From positions 1-64,000 of the forward strand of contig NZ_CAHOYM010000002.1 of assembly GCF_903679515.1 (NCBI RefSeq): a stretch of 64,000 nucleotides of DNA, written 5' to 3'. Positions 3,868-47,296 of the stretch are shown here, one piece after another. Positions within the stretch are counted from its first letter, which is position 1, and each line of letters starts with the position of its first letter. A program made the position numbers and the translations under genes. The notes below the pieces were generated by a model. That model was not told the origin of the DNA. It was given only the letters and a program-made list of their open reading frames with translations, and searched no databases. The stretch comes from Bartonella gabonensis. Its GTDB lineage: Bacteria; Pseudomonadota; Alphaproteobacteria; Rhizobiales; Rhizobiaceae.

Positions 3868-4015
3868 ACGTAATATAAAGTGTAACGACTTCATGTCTTA
3901 TGGAAATAAAAAATGGCTTTTTAGAGGCAAAGTGAAAAAAATTAAAATAAAAGTGAAAAAAATATATAAGGGTGATGTGTGTTTTTTTTAGCTGAAATGG
4001 AGAAATAAAATTGTC

Positions 4016-6925
4016 ATGAAAGCAACAGATCATCTTTTGTTGGTTGACGGATCAGGCTATGTTTTTCGTGCTTATTACGCTTTGCCGCCTTTAAAACGTA
4101 AAAAGGATGGGCTTCCTGTAGGAGCAGTAGCTGGTTTTTGTAATATGTTATGGAAATTACTCTGTGATGCTCGTAATACAGCGACAGGTCTTGTTCCAAC
4201 CCACTTTGCTGTTATTTTTGATTATTCATCTGATACTTTTAGGAAACAAATTTATCCTCAATATAAAGCGAATCGCTCTGAACCTCCTGAAGATTTAATT
4301 CCTCAATTTGCGTTAATACGCCAAGCAACAAAGGCTTTTAATTTGCCTTGTATTGAAAAGGAAGGCTTTGAAGCAGATGATTTGATAGCAACCTATGCAC
4401 AATTGGCAACAAAGGTTGGTGCAAAAACGACGATTATCTCTTCTGATAAGGATCTTATGCAACTCGTCAATAAGCATGTATCCTTGTATGATGGAATGAA
4501 AGACAAGCATATAGGTATCTCAGAAGTTATAGAAAAATGGGGGGTTCCCCCTGAAAAAATGATCGATTTACAAGCGTTAATTGGAGATTCTACGGATAAT
4601 ATACCGGGTATTCCAGGCATTGGACCCAAAACTGCCGCTCAGTTGTTAAAACAGTTTGGTTCTCTTGATATTTTGTTGCAACGTGTGATGGAAATTAAAC
4701 AAACAAAACGACGTGAAAACATACAAGCTTATAGTGAACAGGTTAAAATTTCTCGTGAACTTGTTAGGCTTAAAACAGATGTCCCTATAGACAGTTATTT
4801 AGATGATTTTATTTTAGAGCCACAAGATGGACCACGCTTAATTGCTTTTTTGAAAGCTATGGAATTTTCAACATTAACACGTCGCGTGGCAGAGGCAACA
4901 ACATGCGATGCAGCTGTTATTGATGCACTTGAGGTAGATATTGAATGGGAAAAACTGAGTCACGAGCATGATTCTGATATAAAAAATATTGAGAAAGCAT
5001 CTCTTCATAATTTTTCTGAAAATTCTCCCCAATTTTTTGCACAAAAACGCAAAGAACAAGCACTGACTCAAAAAATTACAAGAGAAGCTTATACCACAAT
5101 TCTTGATGAGGAAATTTTAAAAGAGTGGTTATCACAAGCACAAGAGCAGGGTTTTTTTTCTTTTGATACTGAAACAACCTCTCTTGATCCTATGCAAGCA
5201 AAGCTTGTTGGTTTTTCACTCGCATTACAGCCAGAAAAAGCAGCTTATATACCTCTTGAACATTTTTATGAAGGAGAGGAAGATCTTTTAAGGGGTGGGC
5301 GTATTGCCTCGCAGATTGAGACTCGAAAAGCTTTAGCACTTTTAAAACCGATATTAGAAGATTCTGCGGTGTTAAAAATTGGTCAAAATATAAAATATGA
5401 TTGGTTGGTGATGAAGCAATACGACATTGTGATACGTTCTTTTGATGACACCATGCTTTTGTCTTATGCTTTGGATGCTGGAACTTTGACCCATAATATG
5501 GATGATTTATCTGAACGTTGGCTTGAACACCAACCAATCGCTTATAAGGATTTAACACATAACGGAAAAAAAATTACTTCTTTTGCACAAGTAGATTTAA
5601 AACAAGCGACCCTTTATGCGGCAGAAGATGCCGATATAACGCTACGTCTTTGGCAAGTATTGAAACCGCAACTTGTTGCTCAGGGCATGACAAAAATTTA
5701 TGAGCGCCTTGATCGCCCTCTTGTAGAAGTTTTAGCAAGAATGGAAGAGCGTGGAATTCTTATTGATAGGCAGATTTTATTGCGTCTTTCAGGAGAATTG
5801 GCGCAAGCTGCTTTGATTTTAGAAGAAGAAATTTACAAACAAGCTGATGAAAAGTTTAATCTTGCTTCGCCAAAGCAATTAGGCGATATCCTTTTTGGTA
5901 AAATGGGATTGCCTGGAGGCGCTAAGACCAAGGGCGGACAATGGTCAACTTCTGCACAAACCTTAGAAGAGTTGTCTGCTGAAGGTCACATTTTACCGCG
6001 TAAAATTATTGAGTGGCGTCAGCTTGCAAAGCTAAAATCTACCTATGCCGATGCTTTGCCTTCTTATATTTTACCCAAAACAGGGCGTGTTCACACGAAT
6101 TATTCTTTGGCAATAACATCAACAGGGCGGTTATCATCATCAGAGCCAAATTTGCAAAATATTCCAGTACGAACTGCTGAAGGACGTAAAATTCGAACAG
6201 CTTTTATTGCTCCCAAAGAACATGTTTTGCTTTCTGCTGATTATAGTCAGATTGAATTACGCATTCTTGCACATATTGCGGATATAAAAGCATTAAAAGA
6301 AGCTTTTGCTAAAGGGCATGATATTCACGCTATAACGGCATCACAAATGTTTGGCGTTGCCATAGAGGAAATGCATTCAGATATACGACGGCGTGCAAAG
6401 GCGATTAATTTTGGTATTATTTATGGTATTTCAGCTTTTGGATTAGCCAATCAATTAGGAATTTCCCGCCAAGAAGCGAGTCGTTATATTCAACTTTATT
6501 TTGAAAGATTTCCAGGAATTAAAGATTATATGGAACAAACCAAAAGATTTGCGCGTGAGAATGGTTATGTAGAAACAATTTTTGGACGTCGTATCCATTA
6601 TCCAGAAATAAAAGAAAAGAATGTAAAAATTCGTTCTCTTAATGAGCGAGCAGCGATCAATGCTTCAATTCAAGGTTCAGCGGCCGATATTATTCGCCGT
6701 GCTATGATACAGATGGAAGATGCTTTAAAAGAAGAAAAACTATCAGCAAAAATGTTGCTGCAAGTGCATGATGAACTGATTTTTGAAGTACCAGAAAATG
6801 AGCGTGAAAAAACCATGGCTGTTGTTAAAAATGTTATGGAAAATGCTACAATGCCGGTTTTATCTTTGTCTGTACCCCTTGAGGTAAAAGTTATGACGGC
6901 TCAAAACTGGGATGAGGCACATTAA
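4016..6925 (+). CDS. polA: DNA polymerase I
   Basis: Repair and Okazaki-fragment-processing polymerase. The 969-residue protein has all three domains. The 5'-3' exonuclease/flap domain (about 1-300) includes GDSTDNIPGIPGIGPKTA. The 3'-5' exonuclease domain (about 365-560) has an intact FDTETTSLD first motif and YAAEDADIT, so proofreading is probably retained. The family-A polymerase domain (about 570-969) includes SADYSQIELRI near residue 741 and QVHDELIFEV near 915. ATG 4016 follows a GGAG at 3999-4002. It stands alone and converges on the next gene with only 6 bases between stops. Confidence 0.97.
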   Translation: MKATDHLLLVDGSGYVFRAYYALPPLKRKKDGLPVGAVAGFCNMLWKLLCDARNTATGLVPTHFAVIFDYSSDTFRKQIYPQYKANRSEPPEDLIPQFALIRQATKAFNLPCIEKEGFEADDLIATYAQLATKVGAKTTIISSDKDLMQLVNKHVSLYDGMKDKHIGISEVIEKWGVPPEKMIDLQALIGDSTDNIPGIPGIGPKTAAQLLKQFGSLDILLQRVMEIKQTKRRENIQAYSEQVKISRELVRLKTDVPIDSYLDDFILEPQDGPRLIAFLKAMEFSTLTRRVAEATTCDAAVIDALEVDIEWEKLSHEHDSDIKNIEKASLHNFSENSPQFFAQKRKEQALTQKITREAYTTILDEEILKEWLSQAQEQGFFSFDTETTSLDPMQAKLVGFSLALQPEKAAYIPLEHFYEGEEDLLRGGRIASQIETRKALALLKPILEDSAVLKIGQNIKYDWLVMKQYDIVIRSFDDTMLLSYALDAGTLTHNMDDLSERWLEHQPIAYKDLTHNGKKITSFAQVDLKQATLYAAEDADITLRLWQVLKPQLVAQGMTKIYERLDRPLVEVLARMEERGILIDRQILLRLSGELAQAALILEEEIYKQADEKFNLASPKQLGDILFGKMGLPGGAKTKGGQWSTSAQTLEELSAEGHILPRKIIEWRQLAKLKSTYADALPSYILPKTGRVHTNYSLAITSTGRLSSSEPNLQNIPVRTAEGRKIRTAFIAPKEHVLLSADYSQIELRILAHIADIKALKEAFAKGHDIHAITASQMFGVAIEEMHSDIRRRAKAINFGIIYGISAFGLANQLGISRQEASRYIQLYFERFPGIKDYMEQTKRFARENGYVETIFGRRIHYPEIKEKNVKIRSLNERAAINASIQGSAADIIRRAMIQMEDALKEEKLSAKMLLQVHDELIFEVPENEREKTMAVVKNVMENATMPVLSLSVPLEVKVMTAQNWDEAH

Positions 6926-43434: not shown

Positions 43435-44856
43435 TTATTTGGAATGGTGTATTTTTTTCTCATGAGGAGTAGGTGTTTGGGGTGCAAAAAATGATACGAT
43501 CATGTTTGCTAATTTTTGCGCTACGTGTTGTTTACTCATATGGGGCCATTGTTCAACTTTTTCTTTACTTACGAGATAAACTTGATTTGTATCAGCACCC
43601 ATGACACTTGTACCATCTTGTTGAAAAGAAATATCATTAGCAAGAATGAAATCAGCTCCTTTTTCAACGCATTTTTTTTGTGCATTGACAATGAGGTCAG
43701 AAGTTTCAGCAGCAAATCCAATAACTAATGAGGGGCGGTTTGGAGCGTGTCCAATCGTTGCTAAAATATCAGGAGTTTCGACCATATGAAGGGATGGTGG
43801 TGTTTTATGCGCATTCTTTTTAATTTTGTGTAAAGATTGCGTTTGACTGCGCCAGTCACAGACTGCAGCAACAAAGATAGAACCATCAGCAGGCAATGAT
43901 TCTTGAACGGCTTGTAACATCTGTTGGGCTGTTTCAACATGAATAGTTTTTACTTCTTGTGGGTTAGCAAGATGAACAGGTCCACAAATAAGTGTTACTT
44001 TTGCCCCCAAATGCGCAAGAGCGGTCGCAATAGCATGACCTTGTTTACCCGAAGATCGATTAGCAAGATAACGCACTGGATCAATTGGTTCATGGGTTGG
44101 GCCAGAGGTAACGATGAAATGGCGGCCATAGAGAGGTTTTTCACGCACATTCAAAAGAGTCTCTATGGCAGCGACAATGGTTAAGGGTTCGCTCATGCGT
44201 CCATAGCCTGTTTCGTCACGTTCAGCCATATTTCCTATTTCTGGTCCGATAATATGAACACCATCTGCGTGCAATTGTGCAACATTTCGAACAGTGGCTG
44301 GATGCATCCACATGGTTGGATTCATAGCAGGGGCAATTAAGAGTGGACAGCGTGCTGCTAAAAGGACGCAATCGGCAAGATCATCTCCTATGCCATGGGC
44401 TATTTTTGCTATCCGATTGGCTGTAGCAGGGGCTAAAATAATGAGATCAGCATCACGTGCTAGTCGGATATGTCCGATATCATGTTCTTCTTTGCGTGAA
44501 AATAAATCAGTATATACAGTACGACCGTTGAGAGCTTCAGCGGCTAAAGGTGTGATAAATTTTTGCGCTGCTTTTGTCATTACGACATTTAAGTGTGCTC
44601 CACGTTCTTTTAAACGACGAATGAGATCAAGCGCTTTATAGGCCGCAATACTTCCACCAATAATAAGAAGGAGTGATTTTGATTGCAATGATTGCACTTC
44701 AGCGACGCTTGCATGAGAGGGGGGCGTGGTGAGAGTGATGGGATTGTTTAAAAGACGGCGCGCTTCTTCTTCCATAGAAATGCCATTTTGCGCTGCACGT
44801 ACGCGCAAAGCTTCTTTGATTTCAGGGGAGAGGTTACGAATAGTAATACTGGCCAT
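43435..44856 (-). CDS. coaBC: CoaBC with an N-terminal ribbon-helix-helix (FitA-like) domain
   Basis: Bifunctional phosphopantothenate-cysteine ligase / phosphopantothenoylcysteine decarboxylase of coenzyme A synthesis. The CoaC flavoprotein domain starts near residue 60 (LLLIIGGSIAAYKALDLIRRL) and includes APAMNPTMW. The CoaB domain includes TSGPTHEPIDPVRYLANRSSGKQG. Ahead of this, residues 1-45 (ASITIRNLSPEIKEALRVRA, then SMEEEARRLLNN) form an apparent FitA/Arc-type ribbon-helix-helix DNA-binding module, normally an antitoxin domain. The start is secure: GGAGG lies 6 bases before ATG 44856. At 473 residues it is about 70 longer than ordinary CoaBC. No toxin gene is adjacent. It is the last gene of gyrB/ubiE-ubiB-coaBC. 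Confidence 0.92.
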   Translation of the reverse strand: MASITIRNLSPEIKEALRVRAAQNGISMEEEARRLLNNPITLTTPPSHASVAEVQSLQSKSLLLIIGGSIAAYKALDLIRRLKERGAHLNVVMTKAAQKFITPLAAEALNGRTVYTDLFSRKEEHDIGHIRLARDADLIILAPATANRIAKIAHGIGDDLADCVLLAARCPLLIAPAMNPTMWMHPATVRNVAQLHADGVHIIGPEIGNMAERDETGYGRMSEPLTIVAAIETLLNVREKPLYGRHFIVTSGPTHEPIDPVRYLANRSSGKQGHAIATALAHLGAKVTLICGPVHLANPQEVKTIHVETAQQMLQAVQESLPADGSIFVAAVCDWRSQTQSLHKIKKNAHKTPPSLHMVETPDILATIGHAPNRPSLVIGFAAETSDLIVNAQKKCVEKGADFILANDISFQQDGTSVMGADTNQVYLVSKEKVEQWPHMSKQHVAQKLANMIVSFFAPQTPTPHEKKIHHSK

Positions 44857-44924
44857 AAAATACCTCCAAGAAACAAAATGATTGCAATGATTTCATTGTT
44901 GATATTTTTAGCATATTAAGGAGA

Positions 44925-46511
44925 TTAGAAAAGATGAAAAAAGTAAAAAGTGAGACAAGCGCAACAAATTGCAATGATAAACAGGCTATAACGACCATAA
45001 CGGTTTCTACGACTTTGTTCAGCAGCAAGTTGTGTGAGGGTTGCAGGAGAAAGATTAAAACCTGTTTTTCTTATTTGATTGAAATCTTCTTCTATACGTT
45101 GGAAATTTTGTATCAATTGTGGTGTTTTGCGTGCCAGAGAAAGGAGAGCCTGCGCTCCTTCACTAAAGTCTTTTGCAATACCTATGGGGCCTAAATTTTT
45201 ACTAATCCATTCTCTGACAACGGGTTCAGAAGCTTTCCACATATTAAAACTGGGATCTAATGTGCGGGCAACACCTTCAACGACAACCATCGTTTTTTGC
45301 AGCAATAAAAGTTCGGGCCGCGTTTGCATGTCAAACAATTCAGTAACTTCAAACAACAACGTGAGCAACTTAGCCATGGAAATGCTTTGTGCTGATTGTC
45401 CGTGAATTGGTTCACCAATAGCACGATTGGCTTGCGCAAAGCTTTCAATATTATGGCGTGAAGGAACATAGCCTGCTTCAAAATGGGCACGGGCTACCCG
45501 ATGGTAATCGCGCGTAATAAAGCCATAAAGAATTTCAGCAAGGAAATGTTTTTCTTTTTTGCCAAGTCTTCCTGTAATACCTAGATCAACAGCAACAATA
45601 CATCCATCGGAGTCTACAAATAGATTACCAGGATGCATATCGGCATGAAAAAAGCCATCACGCAATGTGTGGCGTAGAAAAGATTGAATAAGCGTAACAG
45701 CGAGTGCCTGCAAATCAAAACCTGCTTTTTTGAGTTTGGCTGTTTCCGATATTCTTATCCCATCAATCCATTCCATAGTGAGAACATTACGCCCTGTCCG
45801 CTCCCAATCAATTTTTGGCACTCGAAAACCTGTATCCTGTCGAATATTTTCAGCCATTTCAGATATAGCTGCTGCTTCTAAGCGTAAATCCATTTCAAGA
45901 CGTGTTGTTTGTGCTAAAGTATCAACCACACGAACAGGACGTAGCCTTCGGGAAGCAGGAATATAACGCTCTTGTAAATGCGCAATGAGATAGAAACTTC
46001 TCAGATCTTTAGAAAAACGCGCTCGAATATTGGGACGAATGACTTTTACAGCACATTTTTTCTTATGACCGGTTTCATCACTATATTCAGCAGGATGAAC
46101 CTGAGCGATAGAAGCGGCGGCAATGGGAGGATAGAAATTGACGAATAAATCATCAATAGAGCGACCAAGAGAACTTTCAATTTGAGCAATAGCAGCGGTG
46201 CAAGAAAATGTTTGAACACGATCTTGTAGTTGTGACAAATCGTCTGCAACATTACGCCCGACAATATCAGGTCTTGTGGCAAGAAATTGACCAAGTTTTA
46301 TGTAAGAGGGTCCAAGCTTATTGATAGCATACGAAATATTTTCAGATCGCTGTTTATCTTTCGTTTTACGTCGTGCTAACGCAGTTGCTATACGATGACA
46401 TAACGCTGGAAATCCTTGAAGATCATCATGAGGAAGAGCACTTAAAACACCTTCGCGTGTTAAAATCCATCCTGCACGCATCAATTGAAAGTAAGGAGAA
46501 ATTTGCACCAT
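44925..46511 (-). CDS. ubiB: Ubiquinone biosynthesis regulatory kinase-like protein UbiB
   Basis: Atypical kinase/ATPase of the ABC1/ADCK family needed for ubiquinone synthesis, probably aiding handling of CoQ intermediates at the inner membrane. Motifs are the KxGQ helix LGPSYIKLGQFLATRPD, the Ala-rich loop PPIAAASIAQVHPAE, HADMHPGNLF and VDLGITGRL. A C-terminal hydrophobic anchor (SLFIIAICCACLTFYFFHLF) is present. The frame extends to TTG 46526 inside ubiE; ATG 46511 (528 residues), just after the ubiE stop, is preferred. Confidence 0.93.
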   Translation of the reverse strand: MVQISPYFQLMRAGWILTREGVLSALPHDDLQGFPALCHRIATALARRKTKDKQRSENISYAINKLGPSYIKLGQFLATRPDIVGRNVADDLSQLQDRVQTFSCTAAIAQIESSLGRSIDDLFVNFYPPIAAASIAQVHPAEYSDETGHKKKCAVKVIRPNIRARFSKDLRSFYLIAHLQERYIPASRRLRPVRVVDTLAQTTRLEMDLRLEAAAISEMAENIRQDTGFRVPKIDWERTGRNVLTMEWIDGIRISETAKLKKAGFDLQALAVTLIQSFLRHTLRDGFFHADMHPGNLFVDSDGCIVAVDLGITGRLGKKEKHFLAEILYGFITRDYHRVARAHFEAGYVPSRHNIESFAQANRAIGEPIHGQSAQSISMAKLLTLLFEVTELFDMQTRPELLLLQKTMVVVEGVARTLDPSFNMWKASEPVVREWISKNLGPIGIAKDFSEGAQALLSLARKTPQLIQNFQRIEEDFNQIRKTGFNLSPATLTQLAAEQSRRNRYGRYSLFIIAICCACLTFYFFHLF

Positions 46512-46513
46512 TT

Positions 46514-47296
46514 TTAAATTTTCCAACCTGAATGCAGCGCTGCAATCGCACCGGTGAGATTTCGGTACGAGACGCGTGAAAATCCCGCTTTCTTGATCAT
46601 ATAGGCAAAATCATCTTGTTTAGGAAATTTGCGAATAGATTCCACCAAATAACGATAAGCATCGCCATCATTTGCAATAAATTGACCTAGTTTCGGGATA
46701 GCATGGAAAGACCAAAGATCATAAATTTTATCGAGCAGAGGCATCTCGACATTTGAAAATTCTAAACATAAAAAACGTCCACCGGGCTTTAAAACACGAA
46801 AAGCTTCTCTAAGGGCTTGGTCAATATGAGGAACATTGCGAATTCCAAAAGCAATCGTGTAAGCGTCAAAGCGTTGATCTTCAAAGGGGAGTTGTTCTGC
46901 ATTGGCTTCAACAAAATCAATCAGAGGGGCAAGACCATTTTTTTGTGCGCGTTGTTTACCAACGCTGAGCATAGAGCCATTAATATCAAGCACTGTAGCA
47001 TGAGCTTTTTGGCGTGAAGCATTAAGAATGCGAAAAGCAATATCACCTGTACCACCAGCGACATCAAGAACTTTCCAATGAGAAAGTGCTGGTGGAGAAA
47101 GCCATGCAACCATAGAATTTTTCCACACACGGTGTAGCCCTAAGGATAAGATATCATTCATCTTGTCATAATTTTCAGCAACAGAATGAAACACACCATC
47201 CACCAAGGATTGTTTTTGTGTTTCATCAACTCTTGTAAAACCAAAAGAGTGCTCCATACCGCCTTTGGTTCCTACACGTTCTGTTTCAATTGCCAT
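46514..47296 (-). CDS. ubiE: Ubiquinone/menaquinone biosynthesis C-methyltransferase UbiE
   Basis: SAM-dependent C-methylation in ubiquinone synthesis. Motif I is [38 protein letters not shown] and [13 protein letters not shown] are family-typical, as is the N-terminal [25 protein letters not shown]. Length 260. Followed directly by ubiB (2 bases between stop and start). The start is 117 bases downstream of gyrB's stop. Confidence 0.95.

Follow-up and report, generated by a model that had tools for sequence, protein, structure and literature searches.

Why should CoaBC, an essential bifunctional enzyme of coenzyme A (CoA) synthesis, begin with a ribbon-helix-helix (RHH) domain of the kind found in FitA-type antitoxins? 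The question was raised by an earlier note on a stretch of 64,000 nucleotides from Bartonella gabonensis (the whole of which we refer to as the window), which described such a domain in front of a complete CoaC-CoaB enzyme and suggested autoregulation, a moonlighting regulator tied to CoA supply or a domesticated antitoxin.

Architecture and conservation of the fused gene

The coaBC gene of the window is a single open reading frame on the minus strand, which starts with an ATG at 44856 and encodes 473 amino acids (Table 1). The FitA-like RHH profile (PF22513, curated cutoff 27 bits) matched residues 2–37 with 60 bits in the whole protein, and residues 1–60 searched alone exceeded the cutoff with 66.6 bits; the CoaBC equivalog TIGR00521 matched residues 58–453 with 404.5 bits (cutoff 219.7) and Pfam recovered both enzyme domains (PF02441 and PF04127). 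These profile matches put a DNA-binding domain and a bifunctional enzyme on one protein, confirming the architecture read in the earlier note, which had itself proposed an RHH/FitA profile search of the N-terminus. As the note had also stated, a Shine-Dalgarno sequence directly precedes the ATG and no toxin gene adjoins coaBC: the neighbours are ubiB, across a gap of 68 nt, and an unrelated membrane protein ORF 631 nt downstream, and a PIN-domain search of the whole genome was negative. A second FitA-like RHH above the cutoff was likewise not found in the genome, which holds one weak match of 22 bits.

Table 1 Features of the coaBC locus in the window
Feature	Position	Strand	Basis
RHH-CoaBC fusion gene	43435..44856	-	473 aa; ORF/translation; PF22513 + PF02441 + PF04127; TIGR00521
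N-terminal FitA-like ribbon-helix-helix domain, residues 1-38	44743..44856	-	PF22513; dN/dS 0.145; AF2 helices
Variable linker, residues 39-57	44686..44742	-	dN/dS 0.61; alignment
CoaC (flavoprotein decarboxylase) domain, residues 60-231	44164..44679	-	PF02441, 117 bits
CoaB (ligase) domain, residues 243-429	43570..44130	-	PF04127, 215 bits
Shine-Dalgarno GGAGG	44863..44867	-	6 nt ahead of ATG
ubiB, upstream gene, same direction	44925..46526	-	ORF; name by eye from translation, no profile match
Putative operator O1, TGAAATCA-T-TGCAATCA, half-sites 9 bp apart	44879..44895	-	ubiB-coaBC gap; sequence, enrichment in fused loci
Putative operator O2, TGCAATCA-T-TGCAATCA, both exact, 9 bp apart	44680..44696	-	Inside linker codons
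AATATGCTAAAAA block just upstream of O1, possible -10 region	44905..44917	-	TATGCTAA word

Pooled dN/dS across 29 Bartonella rows was 0.145 in RHH codons 2–38, 0.130 in CoaC, 0.128 in CoaB and 0.61 in linker codons 39–57; purifying selection on the RHH resembles that on the enzyme. When the window was aligned with 16 named Bartonella loci, the RHH was conserved and the linker variable, and on both grounds the RHH is very probably translated, under a constraint of about the same strength as the enzyme's. An internal start near residue 55, which the earlier note had considered, is ruled out as the main start by the low dN/dS of the RHH and by codon 54 itself, which is a possible start (ATG, GTG or TTG, by eye) in only 22 of 32 Bartonella rows and, being none in the other 10, is not a conserved one. 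A minor product may be made from codon 54 in some Bartonella species.

FitA was the best PDB sequence match for residues 1–60, albeit a weak one (E 0.029), and an AF2 monomer model of the RHH (pLDDT 68.5) had fairly confident helices at residues 11–24 and 28–37 and no strand; a single chain has no partner strand. Foldseek ranked FitA first for this model, followed by two mycobacterial VapBC-type chains, none of them significant, and VIA-align gave Z-scores of about 3–4 to CopG, Arc and antitoxin chains (FitA 2.5), mixed with unrelated rows and below a designed protein that topped the list. The monomer model thus agrees with an RHH and adds little to the profile match. A full-length model was poor (pLDDT 46.7) and was set aside.

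Distribution of the fusion

We surveyed 121 genomes of the family, including the genome of the window and one congener, and classified 116 with a home-made RHH profile and rule set: 30 were fused, 29 had a separate RHH gene upstream of coaBC and 57 had neither. G091, G103, G116, G137 and G170 fell outside the 116, and G116, which aligns from residue 1, would count as fused. In all, 31 Bartonella genomes have the fusion, as do 28 further family genomes, and such recurrence of an in-frame RHH excludes chance. Among the congeners, 34 of 36 matched from residue 1 and G009 from residue 26, while G018 (85% complete) gave no match. A peptide-pattern search of named genome records returned 17 loci, 16 of them in Bartonella and aligned from residue 1, the 17th in an Elioraea MAG whose alignment begins at residue 59; in 24 other-family relatives the alignment begins at residue 33 or beyond, mostly at 49–59.

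Across the order (121 genomes, 117 outside the family) two fusions were found, G189 and G265, both in family f35; this survey was scored by alignment start and can miss fusions with long linkers, as with G258, a fused member of the family seen only as a second piece, whose congener G133 has a separate RHH. In G213 the alignment runs from residue 3, across four stops. Motif scans of the coaBC stretches gave no match in a Shinella plasmid record, which is unannotated at that place, or on Sinorhizobium meliloti pSymB, where no RHH gene is annotated alongside coaBC either. The CoaBC domain table of Brucella ovis, in the excerpt of PMC9045290, has the flavoprotein domain beginning at residue 7, too early for an RHH to precede it.

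The fusion is therefore wider than Bartonella, patchy within one family and seldom seen across the order sample, so that neither extent weighed in the earlier note holds: restriction to Bartonella is contradicted by the 28 further family fusions and the two in family f35, and generality in Rhizobiales by the 57 of 116 family genomes without any RHH, by the order sample and by Brucella ovis. Its absence from many relatives indicates that the RHH is dispensable, and it can also be lost, as the RHH frame of G009, a Bartonella with a small genome, reads as broken while CoaC continues.

Two loci had unusual gene structures. The coaBC match of the Bartonella genome G025 (L094, C1:41000-43700) falls into two overlapping pieces, either because the gene is disrupted or through an error in sequencing, and G065 (L195, C12:1-3000) has an open frame of 837 codons with RHH and CoaBC pieces and long extra stretches between them.

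Operator-like sites upstream of fused genes

Half-sites TGATTGCA and their complement TGCAATCA occur upstream of the fused genes. Within 130 bp upstream, exact half-sites numbered 49 in the 28 non-Bartonella fusions (0.80 expected from first-order Markov resamples; 23 of 28 loci), 16 in the 31 Bartonella fusions (0.67 expected; 16 of 31 loci) and eight in the 29 separate-RHH loci (0.38 expected). None was found at 57 family and 18 order coaBC loci without an RHH, where the interval was set from the aligned CoaC start and then widened to 300 bp (G009 was counted at its old RHH start). When all 8-mers were counted, TGATTGCA was the most widespread upstream word, present in 23 of 28 fused loci and in none of 57 without RHH, and the density of sites at the same 28 loci was 13.5 per kb upstream (51 in 3,780 bp) versus 0.07 per kb elsewhere (6 in 86,094 bp). 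The commonest spacing between half-sites was 9 bp, in direct or inverted order; allowing one mismatch per half-site, such pairs occurred in 25 of 28 non-Bartonella fusions, 20 of 31 Bartonella fusions and 5 of 29 separate-RHH loci, and in none of 76 coaBC genes without an intact RHH. Both fusions of family f35 carry TGATTGCA-N-TGCAATCA. Other common words at the separate-RHH loci were AGCATTGC (11 of 29) and TGACTGCA (9 of 29), beside coding-like GC-rich words.

The sites are not uniform. In Bartonella they are degenerate, with 15 of 31 loci lacking an exact half-site and 11 of 31 a 9-bp pair, and exact half-sites are missing from 5 of 28 non-Bartonella fusions. The RHH-less G076 has no exact site, its fused congener G178 has two, and two one-mismatch sites in G076 lie, by eye, apparently in the end of ubiB. 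In G009 there is no half-site at the O1 place, even with one mismatch, and a pair is kept at the O2 place. Of five independent pairs on well-supported branches two to four agree with the association and none opposes it, though so few pairs, drawn from loci that share ancestry, cannot bring a sign test to significance (median p 0.25 and 0.125). What the counts show is that operator-like sites and the fusion go together, and we take the sites to be putative operators of antitoxin type that go with the RHH.

At the window's coaBC, the TATGCTAA word next to O1 recurs in the upstream regions of 20 of 31 Bartonella; a sigma-70 consensus scan of the ubiB-coaBC gap recognised no promoter. At O2, codons 54–59 had the lowest synonymous diversity of 398 windows in 29 Bartonella rows, a post hoc ranking because O2 had been noticed beforehand; Ser56 is TCA in 28 of 28 rows and Ser59 in 29 of 29, and Ser61 is TCA in 14, TCT in 12 and TCG in one. 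Only G132 and G094 among the 28 non-Bartonella fusions have an exact half-site between the RHH start and CoaC, and O2 is therefore a Bartonella feature and the weaker claim. The pair at the O2 place of G009, which has no working RHH, speaks either against O2 or for recent decay.

Probable origin from antitoxin-toxin modules

The relatives suggest where the domain came from. In 29 family genomes coaBC is preceded by a free RHH gene, and at 25 of these 29 loci a PIN-like ORF was recognised by eye between the two, a count that leaves out G084 (a stub), G087 (none seen by eye), G139 and G164. The PIN-like ORFs end 6 to 82 nt ahead of the aligned CoaC start, and Pfam found a PIN match in nine of ten intervening ORFs; the tenth is the G084 stub, which follows a kept RHH, ends like PIN toxins and has no Pfam match. 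The separate RHHs of G083, G139 and G087 score low on the home-made profile (17–23 bits). The FitA-type RHH, the RHH-PIN modules before coaBC and the toxin stub make the fusion look like an antitoxin that has been domesticated, a suggestion of the earlier note that is well supported by sequence; from these arrangements we infer an origin by toxin loss and the direction of the change.

On a CoaBC tree of 84 of 105 rows, with Bartonella thinned to nine, the fused label required 15 changes versus 26.7 in shuffles, although this tree cannot separate gain from loss. On an RHH tree of 44 columns, in which most forks are weak, it required 4 changes versus 23.0 and fused RHHs mostly clustered. The fused RHH of G127 sits among free antitoxins in the RHH tree, its nearest RHHs by identity are free, and its upstream DNA has no exact TGATTGCA sites and by eye resembles free-antitoxin loci, all of which argues for a later, independent fusion. 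The pattern suggests to us a single old fusion followed by many losses, or by transfers, and besides it at least one more recent fusion that arose independently (G127).

Further arrangements of such modules were seen around coaBC. Two consecutive FitA-like RHH matches lie upstream of coaBC in G147 (L180), G167 (L111), G133 (L109) and G124 (L112), accompanied in G147 by two PIN matches, and toxin-antitoxin modules seem to collect there. Outside the family, G188:C1:1324650-1326519 (L242) has, in the orientation of coaBC and about 580 bp ahead of it, a separate RHH, which resembles the separate-RHH loci and did not appear in the motif scan of the stretch. The Marinibacterium anthonyi plasmid CP031591.1 (L096) bears at 4001-4249 a gene annotated as 'bifunctional ... 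phosphopantothenoylcysteine decarboxylase', which we rejected as a fusion because it is a 249-nt gene for a free FitA-like antitoxin, followed by fitB; the annotation was probably transferred by mistake from the fusion.

A model of autogenous regulation and its alternatives

We consider it likely that the domesticated FitA-type RHH has kept antitoxin-type operators and that RHH-CoaBC is a PutA-like autogenous regulator of coaBC. Once its PIN toxin was lost, the antitoxin domain would have become the N-terminus of CoaBC, and the resulting protein would bind its own promoter region and regulate its own transcription, most likely as a repressor. Points against this model are the relatedness of the loci, the degenerate sites in Bartonella, the two one-mismatch sites of G076, the lack of a sigma-70 match in the gap, the weak monomer model and the dispensability of the domain. 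RHH dimers on oligomeric CoaBC would bind O1, which sits shortly ahead of the start codon with the AATATGCTAAAAA block on one side and the Shine-Dalgarno sequence on the other, a placement suited to repression; in Bartonella, O2, about 200 bp away, would perhaps aid, with multi-subunit CoaBC bridging the two. Release would come at high CoA demand, signalled perhaps by substrates, by the state of the flavin or, at the CoaB site, by CoA/acyl-CoA. Mycobacterial CoaBC is described, in the available part of PMC7794376, as a dodecamer with CoaC in its core, whose CoaB is inhibited by CoA and acyl-CoAs, and RHH-CoaBC could therefore sense the pathway. A fuller scenario, which we find on balance doubtful, is that a CoaBC that captures an antitoxin becomes a self-sensing regulator of CoA synthesis, its oligomer bridging O1 and intragenic O2 and letting go when the active sites report a need for CoA, with capture by the neighbouring coaBC gene maybe more than once (G127).

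Might the RHH still act as an antitoxin, the enzyme neutralising plasmid-borne PIN toxins? The domain is FitA-like, and three plasmid relatives (from 63 records) are free antitoxins followed by a PIN-type toxin gene. FitA, however, holds its toxin with the part after the RHH, which the fast-changing linker (dN/dS 0.61) replaces here, and the genome has neither a PIN domain nor another FitA-like RHH above the cutoff; a remaining antitoxin role, which would also leave the upstream sites unexplained, is highly improbable. Nor do we favour assigning the sites to another regulator, for example of FNR/FixK type, with shared ancestry accounting for their link to the RHH. The FNR/FixK box is TTGAT-N4-ATCAA, which overlapping half-sites can spell, and the independent pairs are few, but no exact box was present in the 28 + 31 fused loci (0 in 59) and, with one mismatch, it appeared in 2 of 28 and 0 of 31, while the commonest spacing is 9 bp in either order and RHH-less loci have no such pairs, so that this explanation is very unlikely.

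A wider regulator, acting on gyrB, ubiE, ubiB or CoA-related genes, could draw on the place of O1 directly behind ubiB, where a bound protein could block read-through. Yet the genome has five matches to the 12-mer TGATTGCAATCA with at most one mismatch (one for the reversed control), of which two are O1 and O2 and three lie inside unrelated ORFs reading by eye as GAPDH, the end of a hydroxyacid-dehydrogenase-like frame and a peptide-transport ATPase. We rejected a CoA regulon on this count and give a wider role hardly any weight; of the autoregulation proposed in the earlier note, the part concerning coaBC is supported, by operator-like sites that go with the fusion, and the part concerning gyrB and ubiE is not. 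It is quite improbable, too, that the RHH serves merely to assemble or stabilise the CoaBC oligomer, without binding DNA. RHH domains dimerise, and a monomeric PutA that was given an RHH took on the oligomeric state of dimeric PutA (excerpts of PMC5293562), but mycobacterial CoaBC forms its dodecamers without an RHH (excerpts of PMC7794376), and the upstream sites go with the RHH.

Comparison with known systems

Searches of one open-licence PMC library gave no report of an RHH-CoaBC fusion, and the excerpted text of PMC2701414 contains neither 'pantothen' nor 'Dfp'. The putative operator at fused coaBC genes is new here. If autogenous regulation by RHH-CoaBC is true, CoA synthesis would be under the transcriptional control of one of its own enzymes, and an antitoxin would have become a regulatory domain in a core metabolic gene; likely intermediates are still visible among relatives: antitoxin-toxin-coaBC, toxin stub, fusion and absence.

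The closest parallel is trifunctional PutA (RHH, proline dehydrogenase and P5C dehydrogenase), where an N-terminal RHH of about 50 residues likewise sits on a bifunctional flavoenzyme. In PutA this domain makes the enzyme an autogenous repressor, and grafting an RHH onto PutA gives a DNA-binding enzyme (both in the available portions of PMC5293562); autogenous regulation is thus reported for PutA and, for RHH-CoaBC, is what we infer. The two differ in enzyme and pathway, in the FitA-like RHH beside antitoxin-type sites in RHH-CoaBC, and in the movement of PutA to membranes. With FitA of FitAB from Neisseria gonorrhoeae, RHH-CoaBC shares the RHH family (PF22513) and has free relatives with PIN genes upstream of coaBC; unlike FitA it has no toxin, a variable linker replaces the tail and the domain is fused to a metabolic enzyme. 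RHH-less CoaBC/Dfp (e.g. of Brucella ovis and mycobacteria) has the same CoaC-CoaB architecture, from which the same reactions are expected, but no N-terminal RHH and, in 75 relatives, no exact TGATTGCA-type site within 300 bp upstream. RHH-CoaBC is a CoaBC with a FitA-like RHH and not a toxin-antitoxin system; our best reading is that it would work like PutA.
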